From: Haliclystus octoradiatus
Taxonomy: Eukaryota; Cnidaria; Staurozoa; Stauromedusae; Haliclystidae
Reading direction: 5' to 3'
DNA length: 64,000 bases
NCBI GenBank assembly: GCA_916610825.1
Contig: OU744447.1
Span: 12,445,751-12,509,750, forward strand
Shown here: piece after piece, positions 16,808 to 44,683 of the stretch
Layout: the number at the start of each line of letters is the position of its first letter
Numbering within the stretch: the first letter of the stretch is position 1
The notes under the pieces: generated by a model
Told to the model about the DNA's origin: nothing
Database searches by the model: none
What the model saw: the letters and a program-made list of their open reading frames with translations, nothing else
Position numbers and translations under genes: made by a program

Positions 16808-16816
16808 CCAAGGCTA
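16808..16816. repeat. Target-site duplication, left copy (9 bp)
   Basis: CCAAGGCTA immediately precedes the left inverted terminus. The identical 9 bp immediately follows the right terminus at 44675-44683, with no mismatch. Confidence 0.9.
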
Positions 16817-16909
16817 TAGCCTGCGTAGAGACTAAAACGTTTCTGAAGGAAAGTGTAAAGTCTGCGTAGCCGACCAAACAAAGCCGTTTTGCTGACTCTG
16901 CACTACACT
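16817..16909 (+). repeat. Left terminal inverted repeat of the composite transposon
   Basis: It matches the reverse complement of 44582-44674 over about 92 bp. Two adjacent differences lie near the outer end (GTAGAG against GTTCAG) and two single differences near the inner end. The inner edge lies about 90 bp before the putative start codon of the DUF6589-type gene. Confidence 0.95.
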
Positions 16910-16999
16910 CGTCTTGCCTTATAAAAACCCTTATTTCCGGTCTCAAATTCGTGTCCTGAGATGACTCTTAATCGTGATAACATTGAAACTTCAGAATAA

Positions 17000-17460
17000 A
17001 TGGTGGAGGACAGATGTGTTTTGTGCTACGCATTATTGGAACAAAAAAGCGATCGAAATTGTGTTGATTCGAACAGTGTATCTTTCAACCCAAAGGAAGA
17101 ACTTAGTTATTTATGTTTTAATGTTATCAAAGACGAACGGTCTCGTTATATTTGCAAATCTTGTGTGGACCTTCTAAAGTGAAGAAAAAGTACTCGTCAC
17201 CGTTTAAAAGAGATAGATTCAAAAGTTGCTTCACTTTACAGCGCTGTACCTATACGTTGCAGTGAAGATTTACCCTTGAAAAGTACTAGTACTAGATTTA
17301 CACTTGGAATGGACTAGTACTGTTCGTGAAAAGGTTTTAACCGAGGAAAGAAATCAAGTTGGTAAAGCTTTATGTCATGGTACTTATAAGCAGTTGGCAA
17401 TGGTTATATGGAAGCAGGAACGCCTCAGAAAAGAGTTAGTAAAAGTAGTGATGAATGAAA
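17000..17460 (+). pseudogene. DUF6589-type transposon protein, N-terminal part
   Basis: From the ATG at 17000 the frame encodes a paired CxxC zinc-binding module: CVLC near residue 7 and CKSC near residue 54. A TGA follows at 17180-17182. The frame then continues with basic sequence and shifts near 17300 into a segment reading EWTSTVREKV then KALCHGTYKQLAMVIWKQ. This order (two CxxC pairs, then a segment with a Tyr-Lys-Gln core) is how I remember the N-termini of DUF6589 proteins repeated in cnidarian and mollusc genomes. That comparison is from memory. The coding line breaks after Glu-Ile at 17460, exactly where the TTAA-flanked element enters. It resumes at 27772 in the same frame. The role is presumed transposase; no catalytic triad has been identified. 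Confidence 0.75.
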
Positions 17461-19257
17461 TTAAAGTGCCTATGAAATGAAAAAATGGGTTTTCAGATTT
17501 TTACAGATTATGAATCTGCATGTTCAACTTAGTACCATCGCGATATTTTTTTTTGAAAATGCGATGCCTAAGGTATATTTTTGGCATCACAAAGGTGCTA
17601 CATTTTGGATGATTTTGGGGACAGGCGCCTGGGCACTAATTTAGCGGCTGTGACGTCAAGAGTTGTACACGCAAATTTCACTGCAATCGCTCAAAACACA
17701 AACACAGGTTCTTACTGCTTCTTAATTTTGCTTGAAAAACAACGTCTATTTTGATCAAGCAGAACTTAATTCTGGTTTAGAATGTATTTTATCAAGCCAT
17801 GAAGAGACATTATCCTTTCAACTTCAACACAGCCTTAAAAAGGTGAAGTAATTGCTCTGGACGTCCAAACTAGTTCTGAGAAACGCCATTACGAAGAGGA
17901 TGAAGAAAAGTTATATGGTCGGTTTATTTTGGGCATTTGAAGGCAAGGTTGGAGGGAATAAAAGGTTTTAGAGATTGGTAAGCATGGTTATAATGAATGA
18001 TGTATAAACTCAGACAACATTAGGTAGCTTAGCTGATCATTTTCTGCATAATGTTAAGCCTGATAGTCTAGACCAACCTAAATATCCTTTTCGAAACCGA
18101 GTCGCACGTGTAGTCTATTGAATATTTCACCTCTACATTCTACTTTTTTATGGATTTGTAGACTTATGTAAGATCAATTTATCACATTTCATTGTAAGTG
18201 TGAGTGAATTATGTAAAAATATTTCCTGGCAAGACCCTAGAGAATGCAGTCTTCCTGAGGTTGGAATTCAAAACAATGCTGATTTTTGATGGAAATCCTT
18301 CAAAACTTCAATATACTAACCAGCCAGCACAGTTACTACAGTGCTACAATGAAAACAACTCTACCGTCTTGTAGACTGTAATTGAGATATCGTACCGGCA
18401 GACAACGGGTACAGAAGGAATGCCAACGAAACGTATATGTAGTAAACAATTATCCAATAGACAATAAATATCAGTTGAAACATTCTCAAATATTCTCAAA
18501 GAAAATCAAATTGCATTTATTGACAAATAACTATAAGGAATACACTGATGTCTTTACAACATATTTCTGGAGCATGCTTGCATTGATCTTTTACACAATT
18601 CTCAGAGATGCTGCATGTTTCTGCACGATGGATATGTAGGTCTCTCGAATGGGAAACATTTCGCAGGCGCTGCGCTGCCAGCATGCATTTATCATAATAC
18701 ATCCAGATGCACCAAGTTTCTGAATAGCTGAACACCTGGATACCTGGCCGCAACAATGAAAAACTGTAAACACTGTGAACAATCAATTGTCAGAAAATAA
18801 TCTCTCCGCCCTTCGAATATAAAGTCTGACAGATGATTTTGCCTTCTGGAATTCCAGAACATTTTGAAATTTTTCAAAATTTTGCCTAAAGAACATAAAA
18901 ACATATTTACTCTAGCCATTTGGAAACTAGTATTGCAATTGCATGATTCCCAGTTCTGTTTGACCCTGCCAAAAATGAAATTATGTGCACTTGGTATCAC
19001 TTGAATATAGACCAATGAATATTCTCCCTACTCTGAAGCAATATATATGAGGCAGTTTTGATGCTGATTTTTTAAATCATCTCACAATCTAAACACACAT
19101 GCATGGTGATACATGTTATAGCAGATTCTGATCAAGTTTTAACGTTTGGTGACTTGTTGACTCAAGCAATTAACTAAAAATGATCGGCATTATTAGTAAT
19201 ATGGTTTTGATTGTTAGGTGTGTCTGTTAAATGTCATGTTAACTGATTTTCTTCATG

Positions 19258-19448
19258 TCAATTGATTTTGAGATAAATGACAGCGATACAAGAGACATGA
19301 TTGGCAATATTTCGTTATCTTTATAATAACATCGTCAAGCAAGAGAGACGAGAGTGATGATGAGAATTTGTAAATATGGGCAATCATGTCTCTTTTATCG
19401 CTGTCATTTATCTCAAACTTAATAAGCAAGAATTTATTAGTCAATTGA
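19258..19448. mobile_element. Small inverted-repeat element (MITE-like)
   Basis: Arms of about 39 bp at 19267-19305 and about 19379-19417 are near-perfect reverse complements and contain GATAAATGACAGCGATA. The octamer TCAATTGA lies at both outer edges (19258-19265 and 19441-19448). It could be an 8-bp target duplication, but the right copy is 23 bp beyond the arm. Confidence 0.7.
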
Positions 19449-21595
19449 TTTATAATTTAAAATGTAATTTATTTTTTAGTAGGCTTAGGTAATAAATCCT
19501 ATTATATGAGTTATGACTTATACCCCTAGTCCCAAAGAATGCCTGAATGTCATCCTCTCCTTATTCTAATACTCACATTTTCACTGTTAGTAATTGATTT
19601 AAAGTCTAACTTTTATTCAAAAAAAACAATTTAGTCATCAACAAACTGGCAATTTATCTTTCAAAAAGTGCTACATAGATAGTCAAGATGCGTACATACT
19701 TGACACATCCCTTCTCCCATGTACGCAGCTGTACGCTTTTGGTATGACCCCCTCCCCCTCAACTGAGTACGTATTTCATGGATGGCTTAATTGTCCCCTT
19801 ATTGATAATTTGTTTGCTTTTGTTTGCATTTAGGATTGGGTCTACTATTGGCTCTCTTGCTGCACTGTTGGCATTTGATTGTTTCTTTACTAATGTTGTT
19901 CTTGTCTTGATTTAGATCATTCTGCTGCTACCATCAATCTATGTACTTTATTTATGTGAATTATATTTTATTATTATCTCAATCCTACACAGCAAAATCT
20001 TTCGCGGCTATTTAGAGACAATAAAGGTGTCTTTCAAGAAATTATTCCTACAAAACAAGACCATTTGAAGTTTTCCGTGTGGTAAGGAATTTTGTGTTAT
20101 ATCAATGCAATTTTTCCTAAATTAATTAACACCTTAAGGAGTTGAGTAGTAATCAGAATAAGACCAAAAAGCTTCCTTTTTATCAATATTTTCTTCAATA
20201 ATTAACACCTTCTTCAATTATTTGAGTAGAATTGGGCTATTAACTGATATAATTTTCTTGTTTCAGAATAATTTCGTTACACAGAAATTGTATATTTTCA
20301 CACATATCATCCCTATATATCCTTTATAAATAAATACTAGTATCCTAGTATACCCACCCCTTTTTGCATGAGCAAATCTATTTCAGTATCTATCCAAACA
20401 CAATATGAACACAATCCTTATAAATAATTTCGTAGTTATTATAATTCATATAATCAACTTTATAAGGAATTATTAAGTCTAAGAAGTATTAAAAAACGAA
20501 AGTATAATAAGTGCAACTATAAGTACAAGAATAAGAATAAGAAGCATACAGTAAATATAGAGTTAAAACATCATCACCAGATTGATGAAGCAGTAATGAA
20601 TAAATTATTAAATTATTAAAGATAGCCTATATACTATACTTTATAGATAATGTAGGCTTAATTCTTAGTTTGTTGCAGAATGTTCCAACAAAATTTAAGT
20701 GGACATGATCATCCAATCCATTCCATTCATCATCATCATAAATTTATTCAGAATAGTTTATCCAACTTCTTGATATTGACCTTGTATTGTATCTGCTAGG
20801 ATAGTCGCGTCTCTGAAAAAGAAGTTAAATTCCATATAAGTGAGAGCAAGATCAAAAGGCGAATTAGCAGAAACAACACTGCTGTAGGATCGGAATTATT
20901 TAATATAGCAATGAGTGTAGTCCATAATGGACCTTCTATGATAAAACTTTCAGATCACTTATAATTAAACAATTGACTAAGCTGACTATCGCTGTATAAT
21001 ACGGAGTATGAACTCTGGAGGAGAACATGAGACACAATATGCATTGAAACGATGTAGCATTAATCAATACATCTTAATCATTCCTTTAATAAAAATTTAA
21101 TTTATTTCACATCAATTGAGTCGATTGAAATGTATAATTTAACGTAGCTTTGTCTACATAGAAAAACTTTATTTTATGTGTTGAAAGGAAGCCAGAACAC
21201 AATTATTATAAATTACAAATACTCAGTCAAATTTCGAAATCTGAAACTATCCACAAAAAATAAGTTCAAATCCGATCCGATCCGAAGACCTAAAATATTA
21301 ACCCGAATCTGACCCGATACGATCGGATCGCGTTCGGTTCGAATTCATAAATCTTTATTGCAATATATACAACACTAATGTGGTGTTCACAAAATAACGC
21401 CGTCAAAGTGTGGCCAGTGAAACTCGTGGCATTGCATGCGATAGATTCAATATTAAATTAATTTAGCTTCAACAAGACACATGGTCCACTGATTTCTGTT
21501 ATTAACATGATCAAACGATATCTTTTGTTAATTAAAAATGATTTACTGCTTCATATTAAAAAAAATCAGAAAAATCGTTGATAAAAATTGCAATA

Positions 21596-21668
21596 TGGCG
21601 GATTTGAACTGACGACCCTGATATTGAAATACCAGGGCATTAACCAATCGGCCACTACCTTACTTTTT
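21596..21668 (-). other. tRNA-like sequence, possible SINE promoter
   Basis: Read on the minus strand it has a B-box-like AGTTCAAATCC and, about 45 bp upstream, an A-box-like TGGCCGATTGGTTAATG. A stem-loop with CCTGGTAT paired to ATATCAGG lies between them. The T stem does not pair well and the middle stem is too long, so it is not a functional tRNA. A tRNA pseudogene or the head of a tRNA-derived SINE fits better. Confidence 0.35.
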
Positions 21669-23889
21669 GTTATCGGTGCTTTAACTGAAGTGGTCAACAA
21701 ACCTACTGCTTCGACAACGTATTATTGAACAAAGCCGACCCACGCGCGTGTATTGAAAATCAAATTATATATAATCTGAAAATATTATGATATGATAGTA
21801 TATGAGCCTATATATTTTTGATCTTTGCAATCTCAGCAAGCAGGCCTGTGATTTTCATGGCAGTCTATCAAAATACTAAGAGTTCGTTGAAAATAAAATT
21901 TTAAAAGTAAACAAAAGATATGAAAAGTTGACCTCATAGTGCTTCTTGTTATCAAATTTTCCAGAATAATAGCATCAACATTCTTTTAAAATGAAATAAA
22001 ATTCTATAATAAATCGCTATACTAATTCGATATTGATATTATGTTACATCTTGTTGTCAATATTTCTACGCGCTATTTATAATACATTACAGATGTCGAA
22101 TGAAAGAAAAGATGATTATGAATAAATTAATTATTTTGATAGAAAAACGAAAACAACTCATTTTGCCAGATTCGTGATATGCATTTATTCAGAATTTATT
22201 GAAACTGACGCGATGGTTTATAGAGTGGAAATGTTTAGTGCAGCTTCAAAGATATAAAATACCACAGCCGATGGTAATATTTAAATGCTCATGTTATGAT
22301 GTCTGACGAAAAGGATAATTTACTATGTAGAAAATGAATCTACTTTACCATGCATTTGATCACGATATGAAATGATCATTTTTGTCAGAATTATTTCGAA
22401 TAAAAGACAATCTTTATTTTATTCTTATCGGGCGTACATTCTCCTTCGATAAAATATGGTTGTTAACTTATTATTGATTGGTGTATTAACTCAGAGAACC
22501 CGCTATTATGTATTTAAATGTTGTTCGGAGATTATGCCGCTCGTATAGTTTTTATTTGGATCTCATTTGGAAAATGGTAAGTTGTATTTTAATAAATATT
22601 GTTTGCTATGATCGATTATTTCATGCAACCTTTTCGCTTTTTATTTTTGTAACACAAGGTTTGTTACACTCATCCAAACTGTATTAACTATTTAAAAATG
22701 TTTTTAAATTATGTTTTTGTGCTTTTAAATTCAAAGCAAAATTTTTGAACGCTGAAAATATTATAATTATTATTATTTATCACAAATCATACGCTCAATT
22801 CAATTTAACTTTGTTGAATTTGATATACCTGAAAAAATTAACTTTATTAAATGTTGATCAACGATAATAACAAGACATCGCTATTTTTATTCTCGAAACT
22901 GTAGTAACATACTGTGTGTTATTCGTATAGCAAGTCAACAAAATGAAATTTTAATTTTAATCGATGCCTATAATTCCTTCGTTAATTATTGAAGCAAAAT
23001 CTGAAAATAAAAGCCTGCCTGCTCATAACCAAATGATTCATATTTTTATATTCACTAATAAATTATAGAAATACTTTTGTGCAATGCCTTGATTAGTTCT
23101 AAACTCTATAATTTTATACTGTAGACAGATAATCTATTCGAACTTTGAATATTTTTCGAATTGATCGAACGCCAACGTCATTTTGAAAATTCTTGAAAGT
23201 TAATTTGTTTTTATGCCCCGCGATAGATTATTCATTTCAAAACAGATTGTTTGCTCAGTGTTCTCACAAATTATATATCAAAATAGCCTTTTTAAAAGTG
23301 AAATGTTTTGTATCTCGATTTTGTGAAAAGTAATGAACGGCATTTTGTTTCATTTATAAATTAAAGACCTAAAGTCTCTTTAATTTTCATAGCGTTTGTG
23401 CAGCGCTATATGTATTGCTGATATCAACACTACATGAAATAAGTCTACGTTTCTTTGATTTCAAAACATATTTTGTTTGGCCTATTTATACTGGTAATTC
23501 AATGTAATTCAGTATTTCGTATTGTTTTAATTATCATAAAACTGATTCATTTTCAAGTTTCACTTGCTCAAACAATTTACACGCAGCTTTTAAATTCAAA
23601 GCAAAATATTTTTGTTCTGGGGATTTCAATTTGAATTCGATTTGGCTGCCCGCTAGATTATCGACCTATGAAATTTTTCAAAATCTCTGAATTTTTTAAT
23701 GCAAGGATATCAAATAAATTATCAGATGAAGTATATTATTTTAAAACAACGTCATAGACCCATACTTTTCATACAACAAATTTGTTACTGTACACGGTTA
23801 TCTCGACACAAATGTTTGCATAATTTCCCGACAACGGATTATCCGTATTATATCGCCAGTAAGACGTACATAAGTCGCGGACAGACACA

Positions 23890-23945
23890 GAAATATCGAA
23901 ATATCGAAATATCGAAATATAGAAATATAGAAATATAGAAATATT
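23890..23945. repeat. 8-bp tandem repeat GAAATATC/GAAATATA
   Basis: About seven units, the first three ending in C and the later ones in A. The local open frame reading KYRNIEI repeats is a by-product. Confidence 0.9.
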
Positions 23946-26900
23946 GTGATATATAAACAGACAGTATTATGTATTATTTAATATTGACGCTAAATCTGAT
24001 TCTACTTTTGTCAGCTCAGAAACTGTTAATACATTCGAAAATCTATTCAAAAATCAATAACTTGTTCATTTAACTAATCCGATTTCATTTGAATTTATGT
24101 GCAGGAATCTGATTCTATTTAGTCACAAATACTGTAGGCCTTTATTGACATATTTGCTGAGCAACTGACGTGATAGATAAGTAGCCTGTTTGACCTCTGA
24201 CAAAGAAGTAAACGTAACTATACATTTCATACTGTAATTGTATATACTATCACAAACGAAGAACAAATGAAATGGGAAGCTATTGGCTATTGGTAATTAT
24301 ATGAAACTTTTTGCTGTCGGCTTCGGCCTCTGGACCCCGGGTCCCTGTTCAGTAGACTTTCTATAAAAACAATAACGTTTCATTATTTTGTTTTTCGTTT
24401 GATAGCCAATTAATTTATTAAATATTTGTTTTCATTTATTTAATTGTCAAAAGCAGATCAGTCTACAATATCAGTAGCTATATCTATAGGCCTACAATGG
24501 TTACAGTATTTACTACTTTTGACTTGGATTCCTACACACATAAGATAATATATCTAAATCTACTACTTGTTGAGTTCATTTAATATGTTATGAAATCGGG
24601 ATAATGTAATTTTTAATGTTGGTAGACTGATAATAGGCTCACCTGCTTATTATTCAGTTGCAACACCGCTCATTGCGTGAACCAGGAACAGTACAATTAG
24701 ATTCGTTCGAACTCAAAACAACAGAATTCCAAACGCTTGATCAGTTTATACGCCATCACCTATTTAATAGAATATGTGGATACATTTATAAAACAGTCTA
24801 CAGTGTAAAGCAGGACTATGTAATAATAATCATACGGGCATATACGAATAACAATTGTAAATCTGCCTGCAGTCAAAATTAAAAGATGCTCGGCCTAACA
24901 TACCTTATCATTCTAATTGCTTGATAGAAATGATCTTCTGACGACCGAAATCGTTGTATGCATCATCGTGTTTGAGTGATATTAATTCTCCAATATAATC
25001 GCCAAGTAATACAGTATCAAATTTGTTAAAGGCATTGTAATTTGTAGCCCAGTAGATGTTGAACACTTTCTTCAGCCTTCAAAGTCGCGCTCAAAATTTC
25101 AATGTCAAAATTTGCATAGCAAATTACCAACCGTCAATAGATGTGAAGTTTTTGGCAAGATTTCCAGCTGGGGTTTTGGCTAGATTCACACCATGGTCAC
25201 ACTGGTCTCTGTGGTGTACCGCTGAGCGGAGTTGAAACCCAGCTTGATCAGTAATCATTGAAATTTGTGACTCACGCAATAAGTTTCACATCTTGCCGCA
25301 TGAATGTATTATTTTGCTTTATTTTATTTCGATTGCAAATGTTAGATAGATATATATCATACAACGATCATTGGATATAGTAGATAGATACTGCGTCAAC
25401 TCGAGCATTATTTGCGAAAAGCTGTCATCTCCACAATCATACCACATATGCTGTTTATTTTCTGTTTGATTAATATTTTCGAATGTTTTCAATTTTTTGC
25501 TGAATGGCTGACCCTGGTTTTGTAACCCGTACTTTGAAGGCAACTAAAGAGCTATTCAGCTACTTACTACAACGTGGTATATGTAAATAATTTACCACGG
25601 CTATTACAATATGAATTTATTATTATTTTGATTCGCTGAATGATATGGTTCCAGGCCTGACGTGATTTAAATAATAATAATACTACTTGGCTTCAACGGT
25701 GTCCTGCCTAAATCCACAGAAAAAAAATATCAAATTGGTTATTAGACGATTACATGATTGGTTAGAGACTGTCGTTCAAGAAGAGTAATTTTCTGTGAGT
25801 TGTATTATCTTTAAATCACCAACGCAATGCAAGTGGAAATTTAACATTTTTCTAGACAATATCGACATCATTTATAGTTATCTTTTTCAAAAACTCTATA
25901 AAGTTGAAGATAAACCTTACAACAGATTCAAGTAACTAAATGCAATGGAGCTATTGCTTTATATCGAGCATTATTTAAAATGTTAAATTGCCTATCATAA
26001 ATTACATCAATTATCAAATCAATATATTTCACGTTTTCATAAGAAAATATGCTCACTTGTTTGACCGTTGTATGACATAGCTGTATAAATTTTAATATAG
26101 ATATGTTTATATACTTTATTTGCCAATCCTTGATGGTTAGAAATAAAATACACGCATACAAACATCATACTGTTGTAACCTTGTTTTTAAAAAAAAAGGG
26201 ACATTTAAAAACCATACAAAGAGCGTTACTTTTTTGACCATTTATTTCCCTCATTTTTATTACATTGATATAGATATAAAAGGATATGGACTGTATTAAT
26301 TTTGTTGCACAGTTTACTCTTTACCCAATTACAATGAAACATTAAATATATGGAATCACCCTATATAGACCGTCTACCTACAGGTGGTCAACGGTGAATT
26401 TATAATGTCAAAAATATTTGTTTTATGGACTAAGGTATATAATTCATATTTTTCCTTCTCATTTCTAGTGATTGCAATTTATTTTCAGTTTCTTGGTTTA
26501 TTTTCACACAATGTAAACGAACAGCATCGCTCATATAGTGATGCTAAATAAAATAAAATTCAAACAACCACTTTTATAAATATAGAGATATATAGAATCT
26601 ACTTCACTTCCTTCATCGCATGTAACTGCAGTAGGAGCAGCAAGCTAGATTATCTTGATACAAGGCATAATGAGCTCAGACAGGCATGCGAGATTTTATA
26701 TCTCTTTTTTAAGACAATTATGATCGGCGTCCAAGAAGTGTGAAATACCTGGTAAAACAGATCTTGTTTGGACTAATTTTTTCTCTGAAATAAGACTTAA
26801 TGGCTATGCCATTTTTCAGTTTTTGCTGTGTACTCATTGTTTTAACTTCTTTGTTTTGTCGATTTTTCTCAAGATCAGATGTTATAGGCCCATAATAGAA

Positions 26901-27775
26901 TTTCATGTAAATTTCATATTGCCTGGCAAGTAATTATGATAAGATAATAAATTATAATTTTAAAAATTGTATAGGCATGTAAGATCACAAAGTTATCAGG
27001 AAATAATATCCATGCCATCTGTCTGTAATTCTGTAGTATTACTAGCCTAATGCATGCACATATTACATTGTTGAGAACATATCTGACTAGACGGTGGTAG
27101 GCACTGACAGGGCACTGTCCCAAGGCTGTTTCATACATGTATCTCGCTATTTCTATTTTACATGATAAAAGGGCATGAACTGTAGGAAAAGTTCTTACTT
27201 TGAGACGTCGTCTGTAAGCGAGTAAACTAAGCACTCAGATAACATTTTCAAACAAATATCTTGGAACCAGAAAATTAAGTGGACTGAAGATGAGCAGAGC
27301 TTAACTACGATGTTGACACTTTGCGAAGGTACAAAATCACAACAAGATAATCCTACGAAGATTGTCCACAATCTTTTCAATTTCCGTGTTATTGAAAAAG
27401 TATGCATCTAGATAACTACCGAACCACTTCTGCTTGGACAATTTACCTTGGCTGGAGCACCTGATACGCAATACTTACACTATGTTTGCAAATATACACG
27501 AGACAAACAACACAATCACTCCCGCCATGACTGCTTCTTGTGTTGTGTTTCTGATCTGTGTACAACTCTTGACGTCACGCGCCTCATTTGCATAATCTGA
27601 CAGCGTAAAAAGTGTCCCCAAAAATTTTGTGGAAATGCCGACTTTAGGCATCAAAAAAGGTAGGTTATAACTAATTGTTTTCAATAAAAATTATATCATC
27701 GGAATCAGCGTAAAAGTTTCTACAGGAATATGTGAAAACCTCAAAACCCATTTTTTCATTTCATAGGCACTTTAA

Positions 27776-31460: not shown

Positions 31461-33121
<1,661 letters not shown>

Positions 33122-33414
33122 AGTTTATTTCAATCATTGAAAAGTACATACCGAGTAGGCAAGTTTTACATTGAGTAATTGAATTTACAATGATTGTTGT
33201 CACCCCTTAAGCAGTTTTGCTTGTTTATTGGGGGACAAAGTTATTTACATTTTGATTTACTTAACAATAAAAACAAATGAATAAAAAGAGGAAGTCATAA
33301 AAAGAAAGCAAAGTGAAAAAATAAAAGCAAATGTAAAAGGAAGAAATATGTATATAGGGCCTACTGTATATATATAATATACATAAATAGTAGATCAAAG
33401 ATCACGAGTTTATT

Positions 33415-33454
33415 CCGTTACTCTGAGTTTCGCGTAAAGACGCTCTTCAGACGG
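33415..33454 (-). ncRNA. Hammerhead ribozyme core, minus-strand copy
   Basis: The mirror image of the plus-strand ribozyme, because the two palindrome arms are identical. A transcript from either strand would carry one sense hammerhead and one antisense copy that could sequester it in a long hairpin. Confidence 0.72.
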
Positions 33455-33465
33455 TTTTAATAAAA

Positions 33466-33505
33466 CCGTCTGAAGAGCGTCTTTACGCGAAACTCAGAGT
33501 AACGG
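33466..33505 (+). ncRNA. Hammerhead ribozyme core, plus-strand copy
   Basis: All invariant positions are present. Stem I pairs CCGT (33466-33469) with ACGG (33502-33505). The core CTGAAGA is at 33470-33476. Stem II is GCGT-CTTT-ACGC (33477-33488). GAAA is at 33489-33492. Stem III is minimal: A-U, C-G and U-A pairs closed by a 3-nt loop (33492-33500). The expected cleavage is after GUA at 33501. Such a short stem III is typical of hammerheads in Penelope-like elements and animal retrozymes, which often act as dimers. The structure was read by eye, and activity is not shown. Confidence 0.75.
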
Positions 33506-33639
33506 AATAAACTCGTGATCTTTGATCTACTATTTATATTGCTCTGCTTTTAGCATTGAGCACTCAAATTGATGTTTTGCCCACACAATTACTTTATTAT
33601 AATATACATATATATATATAACTTTTCTAGGCCTACGGA

Positions 33640-33815
33640 TGTTAAATACATGATGTATATAATAGTTAAGTTGAAAACACTAGTTGAGATATGGTAAGTA
33701 GCATTAGTTAATAGATTATCTAGATACGGATGTTAAATAGATAATGTATAATAGCAATGTTGTAAAATATTAGTTGATATATAGTAACATTAATTATCTA
33801 AATACGGATGTTAAG
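33640..33815. repeat. ~85-bp tandem repeat in the LINE 3' UTR
   Basis: The phrase ACGGATGTTAA recurs near 33638, 33725 and 33804, with diverged sequence between, giving just over two units. Short 3'-UTR repeats are common in LINEs of this type. Confidence 0.75.
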
Positions 33816-36717
33816 TTAAGTTACAGACATAACAATCATGTATCGCACAATCAGTGACATAGTTGTCAAGCATGTGATCTTTAATTAAATGCCGGAAGTC
33901 TGTTGAAGAAGGGTCGATGTCATAGAACTTTTTGTTGTTCCAAAGGTAAGGTAGTCTATAATTTGGGAGGTTTTGCAAGAAAGTTGTTGCAGCGAATGGG
34001 ATGTGAAAGATATCACGTTTTCTCTTATCAATTTTAATGTATATAAAGTTAGAATATACAATTTCAGGAGCACGTTTGAAAACAACTTTTTGTAAAACAG
34101 CAAAAATTTTCAAAAGATATAAATCTTCTGATTTCAATATTCTCAAGTTTTTCAGAATTGGAGTTGTGTGACTCAAAAATTTAGCATTAACAACAATGCG
34201 GACACATCTTTTTTGGAGTTTGCTCAACTGACTAAGATTTGAAGCATGACCCCAAATAGGAATGCTGTATTTTATGTGTGGTTGAATTATTGAAGAATAG
34301 ATTTGTGCTTTATGACGGGTGGTAAGAAAGTCTTTGAGTTTAATCAAGGTGTAACAGAGTCTGCGTATTTTCTTACAGACGAATTCAACGTGTTGTTTAA
34401 AATTAAGCTTGTCATCAAGAAATATGCCAAGGAATTTAATAGACGAGTTGGAACAATTAGTCCCACATCGTTCAATAGATAAGTTGTTCAATGAGATATT
34501 GAGATTTCTTTTCATTGGGTTGTTAAATATCATATAATTTGTTTTGTTTTCGTTTAATGTTAGTTGATTATCAAAAAACCACTTGGAAATAATGTTAAGT
34601 TCATGATTTACATTGTACTGGAGCTTAGTGAAATCAGAGTCTGATAATTGAAGTGTGGTGTCATCAGCAAACAAACTTATATGGAATTTTGAATTTGAAG
34701 GCAAATCATTTATGTAAATTAAAAATAGAAGTGGTCCAAGTATGCTTCCCTGAGGCACACCACAGGTAATTGTCTGAGGCGCAGATGTAATATTGTCAAT
34801 TGTGACAGCCTGTTGCCTTTGAAAAAGATAATTTTGAAACCACTGGAACTCTACATTGGTAAAACCATAATGGCACATTTTTTGTAAAAGTATTTTGTTG
34901 TTGACGGTGTCAAACGCCTTTTTTAGATCTAGAAAGATGGCAATATGGTGTTTGCTAGATCGATTGGAAAAGATGTTGTTCAAAAAATTTTAAATGCAAT
35001 GAGTAGTTTCATATGACTTGCGGAAACCAAATTGAAATTTAGTTATAAAATGTTCTTCGAAATATGGGTAAACTTGGTTATAAACTATTCTTTCAAAAAT
35101 TTTGGAAAAAGTGGTTAATAAAGAAATGGGTCTGTGATTCGAGAGGATGTGGCGATCACCTGCTTTAAAAATGGGTAAAATTTTTGCGAGTTTGTACTCG
35201 CTTGGAAAATATCCTGTTTTGAGTGATAAATTGATAAGGTAGGTTAAGGGTGATAGGATTTCAGCATGGACATATTTCAAACATTTATTGGAGACAGAGT
35301 CAAAAGATGTACTGTTTTTATTTTTCATTTTTTTTATAGCTTTGGAGACAGTATTTTGAGAAACAAGTTTGAATTTAAATGATGTATCAGGATTGGGAGG
35401 CAAATAGCGCTTGAAATTGTCAGTGTTTGAAAATCTACTGGCAAGCTGAGGTCCAACATTTGTAAAAAATTCATTAAAGGCTTCAACAATTTCAGATGTG
35501 TTCACGATTTTTCTGTTATTTACGTGAAAGAATTCAGGAAAACGATTTTTCTTTTTATTTCTGCTAAGGAGGTTGTTTGTGGCTTTCCATTAAAGTTTAA
35601 TGTCATTTTTGTAGTGTTTGTAAAAATAGTCCCAATATAAGATTTTTCTTTTACGATCAACTTTGAAATAAATTTTTGTGTAAATGTCATACAAATTTTT
35701 AGTTTCAAGATTTTGAGTTGTTATCCATTTATGATGTAATTTCATTTTACATTTTCTAGAAATTAGGATTCCTTTGGTCATCCATGGGTTAATTTTTTGT
35801 TTATTTTTGTTTAAATTTGTGTGAATAATTGGACATGCATCGTTAAGACAATTTTGAAATTGGGTATGGAATTGAGAAAAAGCTTGAATAGGATCATCTG
35901 GAAGGTACCAATTGCACTGTGAAAGGTGATTTCTAAGAATTTCTAGATTGGTATTACTGGTATTGCGAAAAGAAACAGATGTTGATATTTTCTTTTCTTT
36001 AAATTGAAAATAAACAAAAGGACATAGATGATCGGACAAATCAGTTGTGATAATACCTGTTGTTAAGTTATTTTTGTAATTCGTAAAAATATTGTCTAGG
36101 AGAGTGCATGATTTTTTAGTGATTCTTGTTGGTCGAACAGTGAGTGGAAAAAACTTGAAATCCATGCAGCTTGTGATTAGATCATTCAGTTTTGGAGATT
36201 CAAGCAACATGTTAACATTGAAATCACCACCAATGAACACTGTTCTATGGCAATAGGTAGATAAAACATTTCTCAAAATTGAAATTGCATTCGGAAAATT
36301 TGAATGTGGTGGAATGTAAACTGATACAAACACAAAATGTAAGGATTCAGCTACAACAATTTCGATGTCACTATTGATTTCTGATAATAATTCGTTTTTA
36401 GTGCAGTTTAGAGAGCTATGGACAACTAATCCAACACCCCCACCTCGCGATTTGTTTCTTTCCATAAAAACATAATCATAATTTTCTAAAGAGATGCTAC
36501 CACCTTGCCAAATTTCTTGCAATGCGAGTACCTTAATATTGCTTGTTTTAATCAGCTCTATGACGCTGTCGTTGTTCTTCAACAAGCTTCTGACAATTTG
36601 TGTAGCGAATGACATGACGGATTTAGATAAATCATTGTTAGTAATGTATCCTAGTCTCTCGACCAATTCACACTGACTGTAAATGTGATCAAGATTTAAA
36701 TTTTCAGTAGTAGTCAT
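33811..36717 (-). pseudogene. LINE ORF2: endonuclease and reverse transcriptase, two nonsense codons
   Basis: A multi-domain retrotransposon enzyme. The N-terminal AP endonuclease shows ALQEIWQGG, RNKSRGGGVGLVV, GGDFNVNM and LSDHLCPF. The reverse transcriptase shows AKILPIFKAGD, NHRPISLLTTFSKIFERI, FLDLKKAFDTVN, GVPQGSILGPLLFLIYIN and the catalytic FADD in SLFADDTTL. The frame is uninterrupted except for in-frame TAA codons at about 35590 and 34990. The sequence continues in the same frame across both. The copy cannot make full-length protein without readthrough but is otherwise well preserved. The start at 36717 follows ORF1 by about 210 bp. Confidence 0.88.
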
Positions 36718-36926
36718 AATTGTTTAAAATGTCAAAGGCTGTTTGTCGTGATATTGCTAATCTAAAGTACAAACTAATTTCACAGTAATGAAGATTATGA
36801 TAATATATCAAATGCAGATCTAATTCTTGGTAAAGAAAGAAGAAAGATTGGAAGTAAGATAAGATAAAAATAAAATGGAATGGAAGTAAATGATTACACA
36901 TAGTGATGGTTTTGTAAATTATAAAC

Positions 36927-37751
36927 TTATCCTTGTGATGGCGGTTCGTGCGTTGAGTGTTGTTGGGATTCAATAGATTGTGCGATGAATTCATTGAGAG
37001 AATCTTCGTCCATAGTAACATTCTGACCGTCCAGATGTTTAACAATAACATTCAAGTCAGAAGTCCAAGTGGCCAAAATTTTTTTTTCTTTTAACAATTT
37101 TCTACATTCGTAGAACAGTTTAGCTGATTCTTTGGTTAAATGTTCTGATATAAAAATACCAGTTCTCGACTCTTTTAGATTCCTTCTAGAATCATAGACA
37201 GCCCTTCGCTTCCATATGTTGTTGAAGTAGACTAGGACCGTTGGCTTCCGCCTAGTCACCAGGCTACTTTCGTCGTTTAACTGACTAGCGGCTTTTGTAT
37301 TAGATTTATTGCGAAATCTATTATTCAAAGATGGCGGCTCAATTTTTTTTGCTGAGAAATCGTGCTCGCTCAAAGTTATGCCAAGATGATTACTTGCCAC
37401 ATTTTGTACACTTTTAATCAGATCTTCGTTCACCGGTAGTCCATCAAATCGGAGATAGTTGAGATTATTTGACTTTATTTGTTTTACTGCAGCATGTTTC
37501 AACTTTTTAATTTCTTCTTCTTGCCGGCTTAGTCTGAGGGTCAAGGTAAGTACGTCATCTCTCACCTCTTCAAGTTCAGCTTTGATATCTTTTACTGCTT
37601 CAGCCACTGCTGATTTTATTAGATCTCTGAATTCATCACAGGCAAAAACATCCAACATATCTTTCTTTGTAAAAGATGACGCTGTTTTCTTAGCTAACGA
37701 TGGAATCGGTGTAGCTATGGTCGATCCGCGTGTTGATACCTTAGACGTCAT
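36927..37751 (-). CDS. LINE ORF1: coiled-coil nucleic-acid-binding protein
   Basis: An intact 274-codon frame. Residues about 55-90 form a charged heptad-like region (AELEEVRDDVLTLTLRLSRQ) consistent with a coiled coil. Next comes YLRFDGLPVNEDL and then RKPTVLVYFNNIWKRRAVYDSRR, resembling the RRM-like and C-terminal domains of LINE ORF1 chaperones. Such proteins trimerise and coat element RNA in a ribonucleoprotein. The ATG at 37749-37751 is the first in frame and lies about 120 bp from the presumed 5' end. Confidence 0.75.
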   Translation of the reverse strand: MTSKVSTRGSTIATPIPSLAKKTASSFTKKDMLDVFACDEFRDLIKSAVAEAVKDIKAELEEVRDDVLTLTLRLSRQEEEIKKLKHAAVKQIKSNNLNYLRFDGLPVNEDLIKSVQNVASNHLGITLSEHDFSAKKIEPPSLNNRFRNKSNTKAASQLNDESSLVTRRKPTVLVYFNNIWKRRAVYDSRRNLKESRTGIFISEHLTKESAKLFYECRKLLKEKKILATWTSDLNVIVKHLDGQNVTMDEDSLNEFIAQSIESQQHSTHEPPSQG

Positions 37752-37870
37752 TTCGTTAATTTTTTCAGTTTCACTCCAATCTAATTGATATTCAAGTTGA
37801 TTGAATGTATTTGTTTTTATTTGTATTGGTAATGCTGATGTTTGAGTATTAATAAGCTAAGATGCGGGGA

Positions 37871-38404
37871 AGCATCGTAGCAAAAAAAAACACGACCGTA
37901 CTCTACCAATAATTGCGCAACTACCAATATATTGTAGTTCATTTATGTTCTAATTAATACTTAATCCCCACATTAGGCAGACCCAAGAAAGAAGGTGATT
38001 ATAACTAGGGAATAATGATACTAGAAGGTTGAGTGTAGGATAGGTCTTCATAAAAGCTGAAAATTAAAACATTCATCTCCTCTACTGTTTGAACAATGGC
38101 AAAAATAGATACAGGAATAACTGGTTAAATTGGATTCATAAACATCTTTGGATTAATATAGTCAAATTTACATAAAAATATTCCAGAGAAATTTAAATCA
38201 AATTCTTTTTTATAGTTGTCAAATTCTACAATGGTTATAATAATAGTAAATGTCAATAAGGCTATAAAACTACTTTAAATATCTTAAAAGTGAATGTCTT
38301 GATTTCTTTATTCTAATACCGATGAGGTCTGATCATAATATCATATATATGATAGATGTACTTATTTATTAGAGGATATAAAAGTAAAATCAATGTACAA
38401 TTTT
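37871..38404. other. Spacer between helicase gene end and LINE 5' end
   Basis: AT-rich sequence with no coding signal. It is the other part of the original intergenic region between the two convergent transposon genes. Confidence 0.5.
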
Positions 38405-39772
38405 TCATACACTCTCAAATGACTGATCTGGTGATGATAATATATTAATGTTTGATAAGTCCATCCCACTGACATTGTATCCTGCATCTGACTCGACATT
38501 AGACCGCATTGATTCATCTAAATTTGATAGCAGAGAATCAGAAACCATCTGTAGCAGTGAGTCATCTCTGATTTCCACCCACTCTGGATGAAGCTCATCA
38601 TAGCAATAATCATCACATAAACTATCAACTTGAGATAAATTATTTAAGTCATCAAACTCTGTAACCAACGTAATATCAATGTCATCAAATATTTTTGAGA
38701 ATATGTGTAAATCATGTTTAGCATGAACATGTCTCCAAGTCTCCATGAAATTATATAAATCTTCAATGGTAAAGATACAATCGCATTTATTTATGACTTG
38801 TTTGATTTGAAATTCTGTGAATTCATACCACACAGCAGTTAATGCAAGGTCTTTCAATTTGTTAGAGTAGATCTCTAGCTCTCGTCGCAAATCCAATTTC
38901 TGTTGTTGAGTCACAACTCTAGAATTGGTGGAGGATAAAGTGTCAAGCTCTTTGTCCTTAAATAAATCTAAATCAAGAAGGCACATATCATTACCACATG
39001 CACATGTTTCACAGCAGATTTCACAGCAGTAACAGTTTGCTTCGTTGACATTATTGTCGTTAAATTGGTTTCCCAATAGAGTGCGCCTACATTGATCTAG
39101 GTATATGTAACCTTTCATATCATCGGTTGATCGACTGCATGGCAAACCATTATAAAACAGGTAGCAAAAACTTGGCAAACCATCTCTACCAGCTCTACCT
39201 GTCTCTTTGACATATGCCTCAAGAGAAGTCGAGGGACCAAAGTGAATTATCCTTTTCACATCTTTACAATCCATACCCATTCCATATGCAATTGTGCAAA
39301 TTAAAACACGCAAGTGGCTATTTGACTTTGTCAATTGTTCTTGTATGTGTTCCTTCACGGTGGTAACTGTTCCAGCATGAAACATTTCTACTTTTCTATT
39401 TCTACAGAGGTATTCACCATGGTATATGTTGTCCTCTAGAGCAATTTTAAATACTCTCCATATAAGCGCACATTGGGATCTACTCTAACAAAATATTATT
39501 GTGCGTGTACATGAATAGCAGTCTTTTTTTTGTAACTCTTCAAGAATGCCGTGAAATGTATTTTCTAAGGAAACATCCTTATCAATATATTGGACGACGT
39601 AAGATATGTTAGCCTTCATGGGACTTTTCTCTATTTCGAAGGTATTTTGAATTGATAATGTAAGGCGTTCATAGATAATATATTTGGTACTGGTTGTTGC
39701 CGTAGCAGTAAATATAGCAAATCTTGTAGAATTGTCTAGTAAAGCTCTCAGTTGGCCAAGGTTTCTATACAA
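38405..39772 (-). pseudogene. RecQ-type helicase of the transposon, C-terminal exon
   Basis: It begins after a CTCCTTTCAG acceptor with YRNLGQLRALL. Motif III follows as FTATATTSTKY, then TRTIIFC. The second RecA domain has HGEYLCRNR, FHAGTV, VLICTIAYGMGMDCKDVKRIIHF and ETGRAGRDG (motif VI with its arginine finger). A Cys-rich zinc-binding segment (CYCCEICCETCACGNDMC) and a ~200-residue C-terminal domain with HIFSKIFDDIDITLV complete it. One in-frame TAG at 39485-39487 interrupts otherwise continuous coding, and its neighbours (IIFC…SRSQCALIWRVF) read on in frame. The protein would unwind DNA 3' to 5'; inside a transposon it may assist excision or replication of the element, which is inference. 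Confidence 0.85.
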
Positions 39773-40154
39773 CTGAAAGGAGACTTTTTACCCTTAGCAT
39801 AGCCCCTGTGTAGAAAAGAAAAAAGGAGGAGATAAAAATATATCTTATGAGGTAGCATAACATAAGGGAAAAAAGAATGAATTTTGCATCGTAATGTAGC
39901 CAATATCTAAAACAGTAATTTGAATGGCTTCGGTTCTGTTCTTCAGTGTATGAGATTTATAATTTTTTTCGAATAATTAATGATATATGTAGACTTTACT
40001 CTAGTCTACACCTTGAAATTCCTTCCAGTTTTAATTTGTAATATATAAATGTCTGTTTTCCTGTACACTATGTCTTACATTTTATTATAGAAATCATTCT
40101 TTAAAAATAACTTGAAAAGTCCCAAAAATACAAGAATAATGCCTTCGAATATGC

Positions 40155-43100
40155 ATCATACACTCTTAAAACTAAAGGTGTAAAAGCGTACTTTTTGGGG
40201 TGTAAATGCAAAAACGAAGGGGTGTGAATGCCATTCGCACGCTTTCTGTTGCATTTACCCTCGTTTTCTGAAAATTTTACCTTAGATCATGCATTTTACA
40301 CCGCTTTCACACTATTGACCTCGTTTGGAGATTAGGCGCACCTTGCCAAATCGTTACAGAATTTTGAAAATGGCGAAGACGAATTGTGAACTTTTCAATA
40401 TATCAAACACATTATTATAATTTGAATCGTTTAAGACGTTGTTGTATATCCTATCTTATTACAATGGTTTTGAAAGTTCTGGTTTCATGTGCAGTGCTAT
40501 TTATGGTTTATTGACATGGTTTATGTTGAACCGTATTTGCCTGAAACGGAAAGAATAAAGGAATACAAATTCCAACGAAGCTTCAAGCCTGGCCTAAACA
40601 TTTCAACAGTTAATAGGCTACACACAGCGATTACAAGCTGATTTTGAAAATGAGAAATGAAATTTGTATGATATCACTTGCTGCATGACCCACTTGCAAC
40701 AATTCTAGAGTGGCTACTAGTCTAACCTGGACTACAGAATAGGAAGCTATGCTTACAGGCCGAAAGTGAATTTGTCTCTCGTTTTTACATTTTATTTGTA
40801 TGGAATTTTAAAGGTAAGCAACTTTCTTTCAGACCTGAAGAGAAGCTTGTTAATCACATCATATACTAATTACTTGGTAACTGTTTTTATTTGTACACAG
40901 TTAGAATGCTCTGACTTGGCACCGTGGTAGCTAAAACAGATATCAGATAAATGGCTAATTGGATGCCGGACTACGACTGAGACTAGATTATGTAGGCCTT
41001 CAGACCAGAAAGTGTTCGACAGAATTGAAAGGCAAGCATATATATATATATATATATTAGATATTATCTAATAGCAAAAAATAGTGCTCGATATCATTTG
41101 ACAGAGCTAAATATAATAAAAGGAGTCAAAGACTACAATTATGAATGTGTAGTCTTTGACTCCTTTTATTATATATATATATTTTACTTGAATTCTAATG
41201 ATTGATTGGTATTTTACCATATTATATATTAATTAATCTCAATGTTTTGATTCCCAGGCCCAATCAAAGAAAATGATATCATAACATCCATTGTAGTACA
41301 CCATGTACCACAAACTCATGGGGTATCGGTAAATGTGAACTTTCTTACCCTATCATATGTAAATCAGAAATGGAATGCATTGAAGGATATCATGATGAAA
41401 TTATGCTTGGCAGTTACTTTAATTTATTGATCAAATAACATAAGATTATATATACTCAATACTAGGTTACTATAACTCATAAGTACTTGCTTCATAGACT
41501 TGATAAACTTCACTCTAATAGTAGGCTACTTGTAGACTCAATTATTCTCTCATATCATTCAAGGACCAATGGGACAGCTAGAATATATTGGACGGCTTTA
41601 ATAGTTATAGCTATACAGATCAGAATAATATTTATGAAATATTATAGTATTGTCATTTATAGAATTGAAACGAAGATGATGCAAAAGCCATTTGCCTTAT
41701 CGTTGTTTCAATTGTATATTATGCTCTGTTTTAACAAACATTGAGCACTCCCACATACACATGTTTTCCTCATATTACATTTCAGTAATGCAATTTATTA
41801 TTATTTTTTTGATTTTTGTAAAACTTACTATATTGTATTGTTATGTTATTACTATCATTATCACATCTATATAGTCAATTATGGCTTTTTCATCAATATT
41901 CAAAATAATAATAACATTGAACTTAAATCGACACGAAATACAAAGGCATGATAATATATCTATGATAATAATCTGGATCTCCAAATATTATTCATGGCTG
42001 CTTAATTCATCTATACCACTGTAATGTATAATTCTTAACATCAGTCAGCTGAGTTAGACCTATATTTTAATCTTGTATGTTTTCATTTACAGCTTGCGGT
42101 ATCTCTTCATTGATCATATTTTTCCAATTTATCTGCATGAAAAACTACATAGCCACTAGCAAGCCAGATCAAATAAAATCAGATTATACTATTACTTGGA
42201 TGTCAGGTGAGCAGGATTACCAATATCGTAAATTATCTGTAAGTACCTCTTGATATCCTCATATACGGTCAAACCTGCTTTTTATCCTTCAATGACTAAA
42301 ACAGTTTATTCTTCTGAGTCTAAACCAGTTTTTTCTTTCAAATGAACCCTAATGAATCTAATTGCTGGTTGTTATATACAGGTTTCACTTCATAAACACT
42401 TTAGCTGACTACTTTGTCAGCAGTGCTTAATTTTTCAAAATAGCATGGCATTATAGAATATGGCCTTGGTTCCTAATTATTTACCACTGAATTTTATCTT
42501 ATTTACATTGTACATTATTAAAATTACACATAGAATAGTAATAACACCTACAATGCTCTAACCTTTTCATTTGCCATCTATGATATATGTATCAAATTTA
42601 GTTTAGAGATTGATATAAATACAGAATGTTCATGTTCCAAATTTCCAATCCTATATCTTACCATTTTATGTAAATTTCACTATTACAATTTCCCATTCCT
42701 AAATCCATGTGTAGTTGAAGTTTCGTGCTTGTATGTAGGTCAACTGTGTCTATAAGAGTGTGTTGACAGTGACCAACATTTGCTACTAATTCTATCCATC
42801 TGTGTCATTAAAACTGAGTTGCTTGTGAATACACTTGTTTCACACGTTTGAAATTTTATTATAATTGTTTTTAATTTGCTTTTCATTTTTCATCTCCAGG
42901 TTATTACATTTACTAAAACCACTGTACTGTACATCTACGATCTACGGGAGGAATCGTTTTTATCTAAGTGGGATCTTATATTTATGCTCTGGTCTATAGT
43001 TCAATTTCCATTTAATTTATTCTACACTTTGGAATTCAATACAATTGTAAAAGTTTTTGAAATAAATCAATAACAATCACAGGAACATTCGCTGGCCTGT

Positions 43101-43649
43101 TTATTGATCAGTAATGCAATTATTCAAAACTGATACAGTACTAGCTGCTTACCTGAACAATAAAATTTATTACTGGTTGTAAAGAGAACTGCTAACTAAA
43201 TTATGTAATTCTGTAATGGGTTGTATATTGTATATATCATAACATGTATGCTTACAATAATCACTTGAACATATTATTATAATCGTAGTATATCATTTCT
43301 GCAAATTAAATGCTTCAATAAGAATATCGAATGTTATCATTATCTGCTGCCATTTGCAATACCGCATCAGCTTAAATAATACTACTTGTATCATGATTTC
43401 AACTGCGAATACGAAAGCAATGCCAAACAAACATTTCCTGTAAAAGTACGGTCAATTTGAGAAATATTTAGGATTGCATTTTCAACTTCTAGAGTAGTGT
43501 AGTGCATTTACACCCATTAGGGGTGTAAATGCAACATTTGGGGTGTAAAATGAGGGGTAAATTTTTTGCATTTGCATTTACACCCCAAAAGTGTGAATTC
43601 ACACCCCAAAAGTCATGCTTTTACACTTTAATTTTTAAGAGTGTATCAT
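40155..43649. mobile_element. 3.5-kb inverted-repeat element in the helicase intron
   Basis: The ends ACACTCTTAAAA (40160) and TTTTTAAGAGTGT (to 43644) are inverted, and similarity continues for about 150 bp, with the word GGGGTGTAAATGCA repeated inside each terminus. ATCAT flanks both sides, a possible 5-bp duplication. If the terminal T is part of the element, a 3-bp TCA duplication is equally possible. No transposase frame is seen within. It lies between the helicase exon ending near 43850 and the exon starting at 39772, so it is an intron insertion. Confidence 0.75.
41111..41174. repeat. Hairpin with 27-bp perfect arms
   Basis: Arms at 41111-41137 and 41148-41174 around a 10-nt loop. It contains AAAGGAGTCAAAGACTACA and its complement. 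It lies inside the 3.5-kb inverted-repeat element. Confidence 0.9.
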
Positions 43650-43845
43650 TATTATTTATTATTATTACTATCACATCGTGATATCAATATCATGAAAAAT
43701 ATAAAAGGTGTCGCAGTCTTCTCATGAATTGGCACTTGGGGACTGTTATACTAGTATATAGGATATATCCCAAAGATTGCAAGGCAAAGTCAATAGTATG
43801 TAGGCTTACTGGGTTTACAACTAGCCTAACGATTCTCAAGTTTAC

Positions 43846-44365
43846 CTACCAGCGGCTGAGGCAATGTGCTTCGTCCACAGCCACACCAATACAGTTGTCT
43901 CTGAAACTCGATGTAGATAACATCTTTCGCCATATGTTCATGCCAAGCATAGACTCGGGAGATGAGTAAACTACTCTATAATGTCCCTTCTCAATTTCAA
44001 GAAGAACACTCTCTTCTTACTCGCTGTAAATAGCAGCAGCGGAAATTCCAATCTTGGTCAAATACGTAACTTGATCAAACATAAGGCTTTTTAAAGGAGA
44101 TATAACTAGAAGAATAGTTTCATTGTAAGTTCCCAACAATGTATCAGCAATCGTTGGTAGAGCCTGGAAGATGAGCGATTTTCCATACCCTGTTGGTGCA
44201 CTGAAGTATATATTTTTGCCAGAAAAAAAACTGCCGCCAAGCAGTAATTTGATCGTCATAAAACGAATCCAAAAGAAATTGAAGCTTGAGAATTCCAAGA
44301 ACTTCTTCAAATTTGTCTTCACTGAACTCTAATTCAGAAAGTCCAGTTGATTTCAATTTCAGCAT
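43846..44365 (-). pseudogene. RecQ-type helicase of the transposon, N-terminal exon
   Basis: The frame from the ATG at 44365 reads into the Q-motif region (…YDDQITAWRQ) and then shifts at a run of eight As (44223-44230). After the shift it continues SGKNIYFSAPTGYGKS (Walker A), VISPLKSLMFDQV (motif Ia) and AAIYSE. An in-frame TAA at 44017-44019 interrupts it, and coding resumes with EIEKGHYRVVYSSPES and then VAVDEAHCLSRW, the DEAH motif II. A donor-like GTAGGT or GTAAAC lies at the end. The short aromatic-rich loop expected between DEAH and YRNLG is missing, so a small exon may be lost or unseen. Together with 38405-39772 it covers a whole helicase core. Confidence 0.82.
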
Positions 44366-44581
44366 TATTATTAAAACATTGAAATATGGATTTAACCAAC
44401 TAGGCTAGTACACAACGGACAATTATTTTCTCTTTTAAAATGTGAGAAATGATAAATATTGAAACGTAAAATCTACGATTTTGATTTATCACATGACTAC
44501 TGCCGTTAGCCTGATTGGCTAATTTGACAGCATAATCACGTGATCGATGCTACCCAATAGGATTGAGTCACTGCTTTTGCA

Positions 44582-44683
44582 AGTCTAGTGCAGCGTCAGC
44601 AAAACGGCTTTGTTTGGTCGGCTACGCAGACTTTACACTTTCCTTCAGAAACGTTTTAGTCTGAACGCAGGCTACCAAGGCTA
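44582..44683 (-). repeat. Right terminal inverted repeat and 9-bp target duplication
   Basis: 44582-44674 is the reverse complement of the left terminus. CCAAGGCTA at 44675-44683 is the right copy of the target duplication. About 215 bp separate its inner edge from the helicase start codon, leaving room for a promoter. Confidence 0.95.

Follow-up and report, generated by a model that had tools for sequence, protein, structure and literature searches.

What kind of transposon carries a gene of the DUF6589 family facing a RecQ-type helicase gene, and which product would act as its transposase? The question arises from a 64,000-nucleotide stretch of the Haliclystus octoradiatus genome (contig OU744447.1, hereafter the window), in which an old, broken transposon copy holds a probable transposase gene and a RecQ helicase gene. 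The two genes are convergent, with DUF6589 on the plus strand and the helicase on the minus strand, as a reading made without database searches (the sequence-only reading) had proposed and as Pfam matches on both strands confirm. Stops and frame breaks interrupt both of them.

One element with three nested insertions

The sequence-only reading had described inverted termini of about 92 bp with about four mismatches and a perfect 9-bp target duplication. We found 93-bp terminal inverted repeats (TIRs; 16817-16909 against 44674-44582 reversed, 95.7% identity, 4 mismatches), with CCAAGGCTA repeated perfectly on both sides of the element (Table 1). The terminus was searched twice against its own genome, a 262-Mb assembly, and matched in 40 of the 40 candidates scored among 535 and among 566, so that each search gives at least 40 matches to the terminus. 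In addition, the joined flanks of the element match an uninterrupted paralogous site (C7:13313596-13313881) that holds one target copy, CCGAGGCTA, with 1 mismatch to CCAAGGCTA. Because the terminus recurs across the genome and a paralogous empty site exists, we conclude that the pairing of the repeats is not due to chance. Further termini and an empty site with a single target copy were both among the checks that the sequence-only reading had proposed.

Table 1. Features of the transposon copy, in positions of the window
Feature	Positions	Strand	Basis or remark
Left target-site duplication CCAAGGCTA	16808-16816	.	single copy at paralogous empty site
Transposon, whole	16817-44674		one TIR element, split by nested insertions
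Left terminal inverted repeat, 93 bp, starts TAGCCTGCG	16817-16909	+	many genome copies
DUF6589 gene, 5' part, N-terminal ZAD-like zinc domain	17000-17462	+	tblastn with sister-family protein
Later insertion 1, 10,307 bp, flanked by TTAA, with inverted ends AGTGCCTATGAAATG	17465-27771	.	sequence
DUF6589 gene, remainder, decayed, five matched blocks	27772-31457	+	tblastn, PF20231
Putative first catalytic Asp codon, FDN motif	28431-28433	+	Asp in 19/19 aligned rows with a residue
Putative second catalytic Asp codon, DQLTVERG	29745-29747	+	Asp in 19/19 rows
C2H2-type finger, C-x4-C ... H-x3-H	30681-30752	+	between second Asp and Glu; from translation
Putative catalytic Glu codon, IDLALEHFNN	31092-31094	+	Glu in 12/13 rows
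Later insertion 2, LINE (limits approximate, about 31.7-37.9 kb)	31700-37900	-	RVT_1 and Exo_endo_phos matches
RecQ-type helicase, second exon block, one stop	38408-39775	-	Helicase_C, tblastn
Later insertion 3, 3,485 bp, flanked by ATCAT, with ends ACACTCTTAAAA	40160-43644	.	between two helicase exon blocks
RecQ-type helicase, first exon block, GYGKS and DEAH motifs, broken	43849-44365	-	Pfam DEAD, tblastn
Right terminal inverted repeat	44582-44674	-	paired with left end
Right target-site duplication CCAAGGCTA	44675-44683	.	perfect

The locus had also been called a composite transposon, a term that we reject, as a single TIR pair encloses three nested insertions. All three had been recognized in the earlier reading, and without them the element measures about 7.9 kb, as estimated there. 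The second insertion is a LINE that encodes a reverse transcriptase and an endonuclease domain on the minus strand and has at its low end some 1.4 kb of GATA tract.

Two broken genes and their predicted products

The 5' part of the DUF6589 gene is broken by a stop (17180-17182) and by frame changes. Its Pfam zf-AD match falls below the cut-off (E 0.031), and a ZAD fold match was found for a homologue of the protein. In the remainder of the gene, tblastn matched five blocks (27765-28466, 28805-29128, 29519-29644, 29730-29885 and 30276-31457), and PF20231 exceeds the Pfam cut-off (E 2.3e-14; 30495-31178, plus strand), which bears out the DUF6589 identity that had been proposed from motifs.

The predicted core of the DUF6589 protein (pLDDT 80) probably has an RNase-H-like DDD/E fold, the prediction that had been proposed as a check. 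Its best fold match is the P-element transposase, followed by Hermes, Transib, ISCth4 and RAG1. The best ten rows are all DDE transposases or RAG1, a verdict limited to the families among the matches listed. Foldseek alone gave no significant match for the core, and its first match for the full-length model, Hermes, is weak (E 0.032). Across the aligned DUF6589 rows, D, D and E are conserved at places that match the fold; in the protein of sister family B these putative catalytic acids are D387, D543 and E855. Together, the core fold match and these conserved acids suggest that DUF6589 is a DDE transposase, as had been presumed.

We placed the putative Glu by extrapolating the ends of the fold alignments with P element, Hermes and RAG1, using what we take to be the catalytic residue numbers of these proteins and assuming a gap-free last helix. 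These ends put the last acid at residues 523-525 of P0004, where E524 stands. For this reason the last catalytic acid probably lies outside the EGDGER block, the D residues of which are conserved, and we prefer the E of IDLALE. An alternative placement at D766/E770 of P0005 was rejected. The four columns of the C2H2-type finger are conserved in 15/17, 17/17, 15/16 and 15/15 rows.

The helicase gene has Pfam matches to DEAD (E 9.1e-9; 44020-44328, minus strand) and Helicase_C (E 5.5e-11; 38408-39484, minus strand). PDB sequence matches type it as RecQ, with WRN (E 8.8e-38) and also RECQ5, bacterial RecQ, RECQ1, RECQ4 and BLM; an SF2 core with significant RecQ similarity places it in the RecQ family. 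The RecQ assignment of the sequence-only reading is supported. RecQ zinc-binding, RQC and HRDC domains usually follow a RecQ core but do not define the family. In the sister-family helicase, Pfam gave none of the three over cut-off after the core; only PF00270 and PF00271 exceed it, with PF04851 below. A cluster of Cys residues lies downstream of the core in that sequence.

Probable affinity to AcademH

We regard the element as a helicase-carrying DNA transposon of the AcademH type with cut-and-paste movement (probability about 0.8), a membership that rests on shared features, AcademH being known to us by description. AcademH was reportedly described by Kojima (2020, Mob DNA 11:15); the spelling "Academ-H" did not occur in the literature searched. 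As printed in the part of PMC10045372 that concerns these lineages, AcademH bears a helicase and has duplications of 9 or 10 bp, and AcademX has a nuclease and duplications of 3 or 4 bp. The element resembles AcademH in carrying a helicase (DEAD and Helicase_C) inside its ends beside a probable DDD/E transposase, and 9-bp duplications occur here, whereas 8-bp duplications are equally common; this comparison is with the printed description of AcademH. Among 19 distinct perfect duplications, nine are of 9 bp (five readable as 10 if the terminal element base is counted) and ten are of 8 bp (five readable as 9 in the same way, five strictly 8), and none is an unambiguous 10. Duplications of 8-9 bp and a helicase also set the element apart from AcademX. 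A link to the latter through an XPG nuclease was rejected: an exon-by-exon search of the genome found three XPG_I places, none of them near DUF6589.

The sequence-only reading, which had named AcademH as a possible relative, also considered an undescribed transposon type. AcademH was indeed the best lead, and an AcademH-type element is most likely rather than a new type. We consider it unlikely that DUF6589 and RecQ define a separate superfamily near P element, hAT and Transib, outside Academ. In its favour, P and hAT elements make 8-bp duplications, to which 8-9 bp comes closer than 9-10 bp does, and the P element is the best fold match. Moreover, Pfam still lists DUF6589 as of unknown function, and the term did not occur in the literature searched. 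P element, hAT (Hermes), Transib/RAG1 and ISCth4 are all absent among the 16 PDB chains that match the DUF6589 protein by sequence with E up to 10. To our knowledge, P elements have no helicase gene, and we know of no RecQ partner in the other three. Against a separate superfamily, a helicase with 9-bp duplications is what is already printed for AcademH, and both AcademH and AcademX are printed with two neighbouring duplication lengths (PMC10045372).

That DUF6589 is an accessory protein, with the transposase encoded elsewhere, would agree with the Pfam label and the weak Foldseek scores. We judge it improbable, given that DDE enzymes fill all ten top rows for the core model, that three acids are conserved at matching places, and that in sister family B the longest stop-to-stop frame outside the exons of the two genes has 143 aa and lies antisense to DUF6589.

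A Kolobok-type origin is very improbable: Kolobok elements target TTAA and have another transposase superfamily, whereas the duplications here are of 8-9 bp and the protein matches DUF6589. What the two share is a transposon-borne RecQ. According to PMC9587614, the RecQ of KolobokH lies downstream of the transposase, and that of Kolobok-1_CCri is on the complementary strand.

Sister families and a possible mechanism

Of the 34 DUF6589 places found in this genome, 22 have this helicase at a distance of no more than 10 kb (0.11 expected), and all 22 pairs are tail to tail. This excess, together with sister elements that hold both genes inside their ends, refutes a chance co-location in which later insertions joined host RecQ and DUF6589 genes in an old TIR element, broken and nested as the window copy is.

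The gene pair between such termini, whose absence from other copies would have counted against the sequence-only reading, is present in families B and C. Neither this outcome nor those for further termini and the empty site refuted that reading. Family B elements (6.87 kb) have open products of 976 and 663 aa, with splicing predicted. Copies on C1, C4 and C6 are identical across 3,957 bp and have different target duplications; since sister copies are almost identical between chromosomes, family B has moved recently. Family C has perfect 61-bp ends and a 9-bp duplication, ACGGCACCA. One sister-family copy is inserted in a satellite, where an empty unit matches 111/111 bases. Short copies share both element ends in 3/3 compared, and such internally deleted copies presumably moved in trans.

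In other annotations, homologous DUF6589/helicase pairs carry consecutive gene numbers (P0003/P0031 and P0020/P0033), and the named DUF6589 homologues include cnidarian proteins, which together with intron-bearing genes and the assembly size suggests an animal host. A search of bacterial and archaeal genome contigs found no relative. A distant DUF6589 gene occurs in two copies at C2:21.498 Mb, with no match to this helicase at E <= 1.

We propose that the DUF6589 protein would act as the DDE transposase. Its ZAD-like zinc domain and C2H2 finger may help to bind DNA, and the RNase-H-like core, with its D, D and E, would cut the ends and join them to the two target strands at points 8-9 bp apart. 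More tentatively, the element's own WRN/RECQ5-like RecQ helicase might unwind DNA at the ends or the target, or in donor-gap repair, a task for which other cut-and-paste elements may depend on RecQ enzymes of the host.

For DUF6589, which Pfam lists without a known function, this gives a probable role, that of a DDE transposase, and probable catalytic residues. With its open genes and near-identity between chromosomes, family B could serve to assay the transposition of a helicase-bearing element, through which the reason why a cut-and-paste transposon has its own RecQ helicase becomes testable.

Ends, target sites and internal structure

The window lies at C2:12445751-12509750 of an assembly of 262 Mb in 33 contigs. 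The sequence-only reading had described an inverted terminus at each end, a perfect 9-bp target duplication and three later insertions, and all of these were recovered (table). Without the insertions, about 7.9 kb of the window element remains.

Features of the window element (positions in the window)
Feature	Position	Strand	Evidence
Target duplication CCAAGGCTA	16808-16816 and 44675-44683		flanks both ends of the element
Inverted ends	16817-16909 and 44582-44674		93 bp, 95.7% identity
Insertion 1	17465-27771		inverted ends AGTGCCTATGAAATGAAAAAATGGGTTTT, TTAA both sides
DUF6589 domain	30495-31178	+	E 2.3e-14
Insertion 2 (LINE)	about 31.7-37.9 kb	-	reverse transcriptase and endonuclease domains
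Helicase_C domain	38408-39484	-	domain match
Insertion 3	40160-43644		ATCAT both sides
DEAD domain	44020-44328	-	domain match

The terminus is a repeat in the genome, as all 40 scored candidates matched in both genome searches (40 of 535 and 40 of 566 scored). A 300-base empty-site query, in which the two flanks of the window element were joined around a single copy of the duplication, matched three places: these two flanks themselves and C7:13313596-13313881. This paralogous site is continuous across the junction at 89% identity, and its aligned single target copy, CCGAGGCTA, has one mismatch to CCAAGGCTA. For a copy of the sister family B on contig C6, the joined flank with a single ATTATTTCA matched an uninterrupted satellite unit over 111 of 111 bases and three further units over 110 of 111. 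Because these empty sites carry one target copy, the duplications arise from insertion. The C6 copy sits in a satellite-like tandem array (L041 and L042, C6:15224500-15244499) whose units are exact or near-exact empty sites.

Insertion 1 (10.3 kb), in which no stop-to-stop frame of 150 aa was found, may derive from an element of the Kolobok or piggyBac type. Compared with the sister-family proteins, the DUF6589 gene falls into seven blocks with 13 stops in total and the helicase gene into three blocks with two stops, counts that include stops in predicted introns crossed by some blocks. Judged from its sequence, the window copy is broken.

The nested LINE has a GATA tract of ~1.4 kb at its 3' end (about 31.7-33.1 kb), and its region holds a 155-bp near-perfect palindrome (33383-33537, 99.4% to its own reverse complement), perhaps a foldback element. 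Elsewhere in the window, a 170-aa frame (54423-54932) weakly resembles a tyrosine recombinase (Phage_integrase, just under the Pfam cut-off) and possibly derives from a Crypton- or DIRS-like element.

The gene pair across the genome and beyond

The DUF6589-helicase pair is carried by a mobile element family, and a sister family has been recently active. The DUF6589 profile PF20231 matches 24 places in the genome. When matches on the same strand and no more than 2 kb apart are merged, the 44 matches of the window DUF6589 exon and the 56 of the helicase exon form 34 and 43 places. At 22 of the 34 DUF6589 places a helicase place lies within 10 kb, where 0.11 such pairs are expected by chance, and all 22 pairs are convergent. 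Another 12 DUF6589 places have no helicase neighbour and 21 helicase places stand alone; many of these are short fragments. By our reading of identity and spacing, one young family accounts for 12 of the 22 pairs, and therefore the independent families number about eleven at most.

The family B element is 6,873 bp long with ends TAGCCTGCGTGCAGAC, and its copies on C8 and C6 are 99.86% identical over 6,891 columns. With splicing as we predict it, the element encodes an open DUF6589 protein of 976 aa (five exons, + strand) and a helicase of 663 aa (two exons, - strand). Over the 2.6-4.0 kb around the DUF6589 exon, 10 of 11 copies differ pairwise by 0 to 15 bases, and the eleventh diverges by just under 3%; the C1, C4 and C6 copies are identical over 3,957 bp. 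Family C is represented by a copy on C4 whose inverted ends are perfect over 61 bp; its duplication is the 9-bp ACGGCACCA, and it carries the same gene pair. The ends of all three families (the window element, B and C) start with TAGCCTGCG.

In two family-B copies (L065, C1:39459560-39459700; L067, C1:39710870-39711020) the helicase sequence passes into the same unrelated tRNA-like sequence, by insertion or truncation; because this sequence is common to both, a single event was probably then duplicated. At L096 (C2:21495000-21504999) lie two copies of a distantly related DUF6589 gene (27-35% identity in the C-terminal part), for which no match to the window-type helicase was found. The gene stands beside another repeated frame and is possibly another DUF6589 transposon lineage.

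In three short copies compared (574-809 bp), the stretches shared with the two ends of the window element reach about 370 bp and 196 bp, at 72-89% identity. Because both ends are shared, they are internally deleted relatives. A 79-bp stretch at 57679-57757 with related ends TAGCTTGCG ... CGCAGGCTA, whose 8-bp flanks differ from each other at two positions, is perhaps a minimal non-autonomous relative.

Two homologue searches, the second covering the 7,999 best candidates, listed 17 and 21 DUF6589 relatives; among the matches listed, those named to species are cnidarian. The partner gene had been read as a RecQ helicase, and its best match is indeed WRN (E 8.8e-38), followed by RECQ5, RecQ, RECQ1, RECQ4 and BLM. 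Among the best 120 of 7,974 helicase relatives, the closest (P0030-P0043) match helicase-core models only, and those from P0044 on match RecQ zinc-binding, RQC or HRDC models too. Other annotations probably also place the two genes side by side, because the gene numbers of helicase relatives P0031 and P0033 adjoin those of DUF6589 relatives P0003 and P0020, a reading of gene numbers that assumes one annotation for each protein pair.

Duplication lengths and probable relation to AcademH

The duplications of the window element and family C are both 9 bp. Of 11 family-B copies inspected, seven had both ends (in four, one end lay outside the fetched stretch, two of them being copies whose helicase passes into the tRNA-like sequence), with duplications of 9 bp in four and 8 bp in three, one of which, on C8, is readable as 8, 9 or 10. 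Short copies of family A, that of the window element, were inspected at 22 loci, five lacking the second end and L005-L007 repeating three loci. The other 17 comprise eight perfect 8-bp duplications (seven distinct insertions), five perfect 9-bp ones (three distinct), three of 8 bp with one mismatch and one of 7 bp. Pooled over all families, distinct perfect duplications number 10 of 8 bp and 9 of 9 bp. Counting a terminal element base as target would allow five 8-bp cases to be read as 9 and five 9-bp cases as 10; the other five 8-bp duplications are strictly 8 bp under either reading.

A passage by Kojima (PMC10045372) gives duplications of 9 or 10 bp for AcademH and 3 or 4 for AcademX, and connects these lengths with what each lineage encodes, a helicase and a nuclease respectively. 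The window-type element resembles AcademH, as described there, in its helicase gene and 9-bp duplications but differs in its frequent 8-bp duplications. Judged by these described features, we regard it as a probable AcademH member, in line with the suggested relation. An undescribed transposon type is an unlikely alternative, since a helicase-encoding lineage with 9- or 10-bp duplications is already in print (PMC10045372). No paper in the searched literature links AcademH to DUF6589, although the original AcademH paper may do so in other words.

We infer that the DUF6589 protein is the element's DDE transposase. The role of the element's own helicase is speculative. In Drosophila, repair following P-element excision employs the host RecQ helicase Blm, and a transposon that supplies its own RecQ would, speculatively, fit with such a role.
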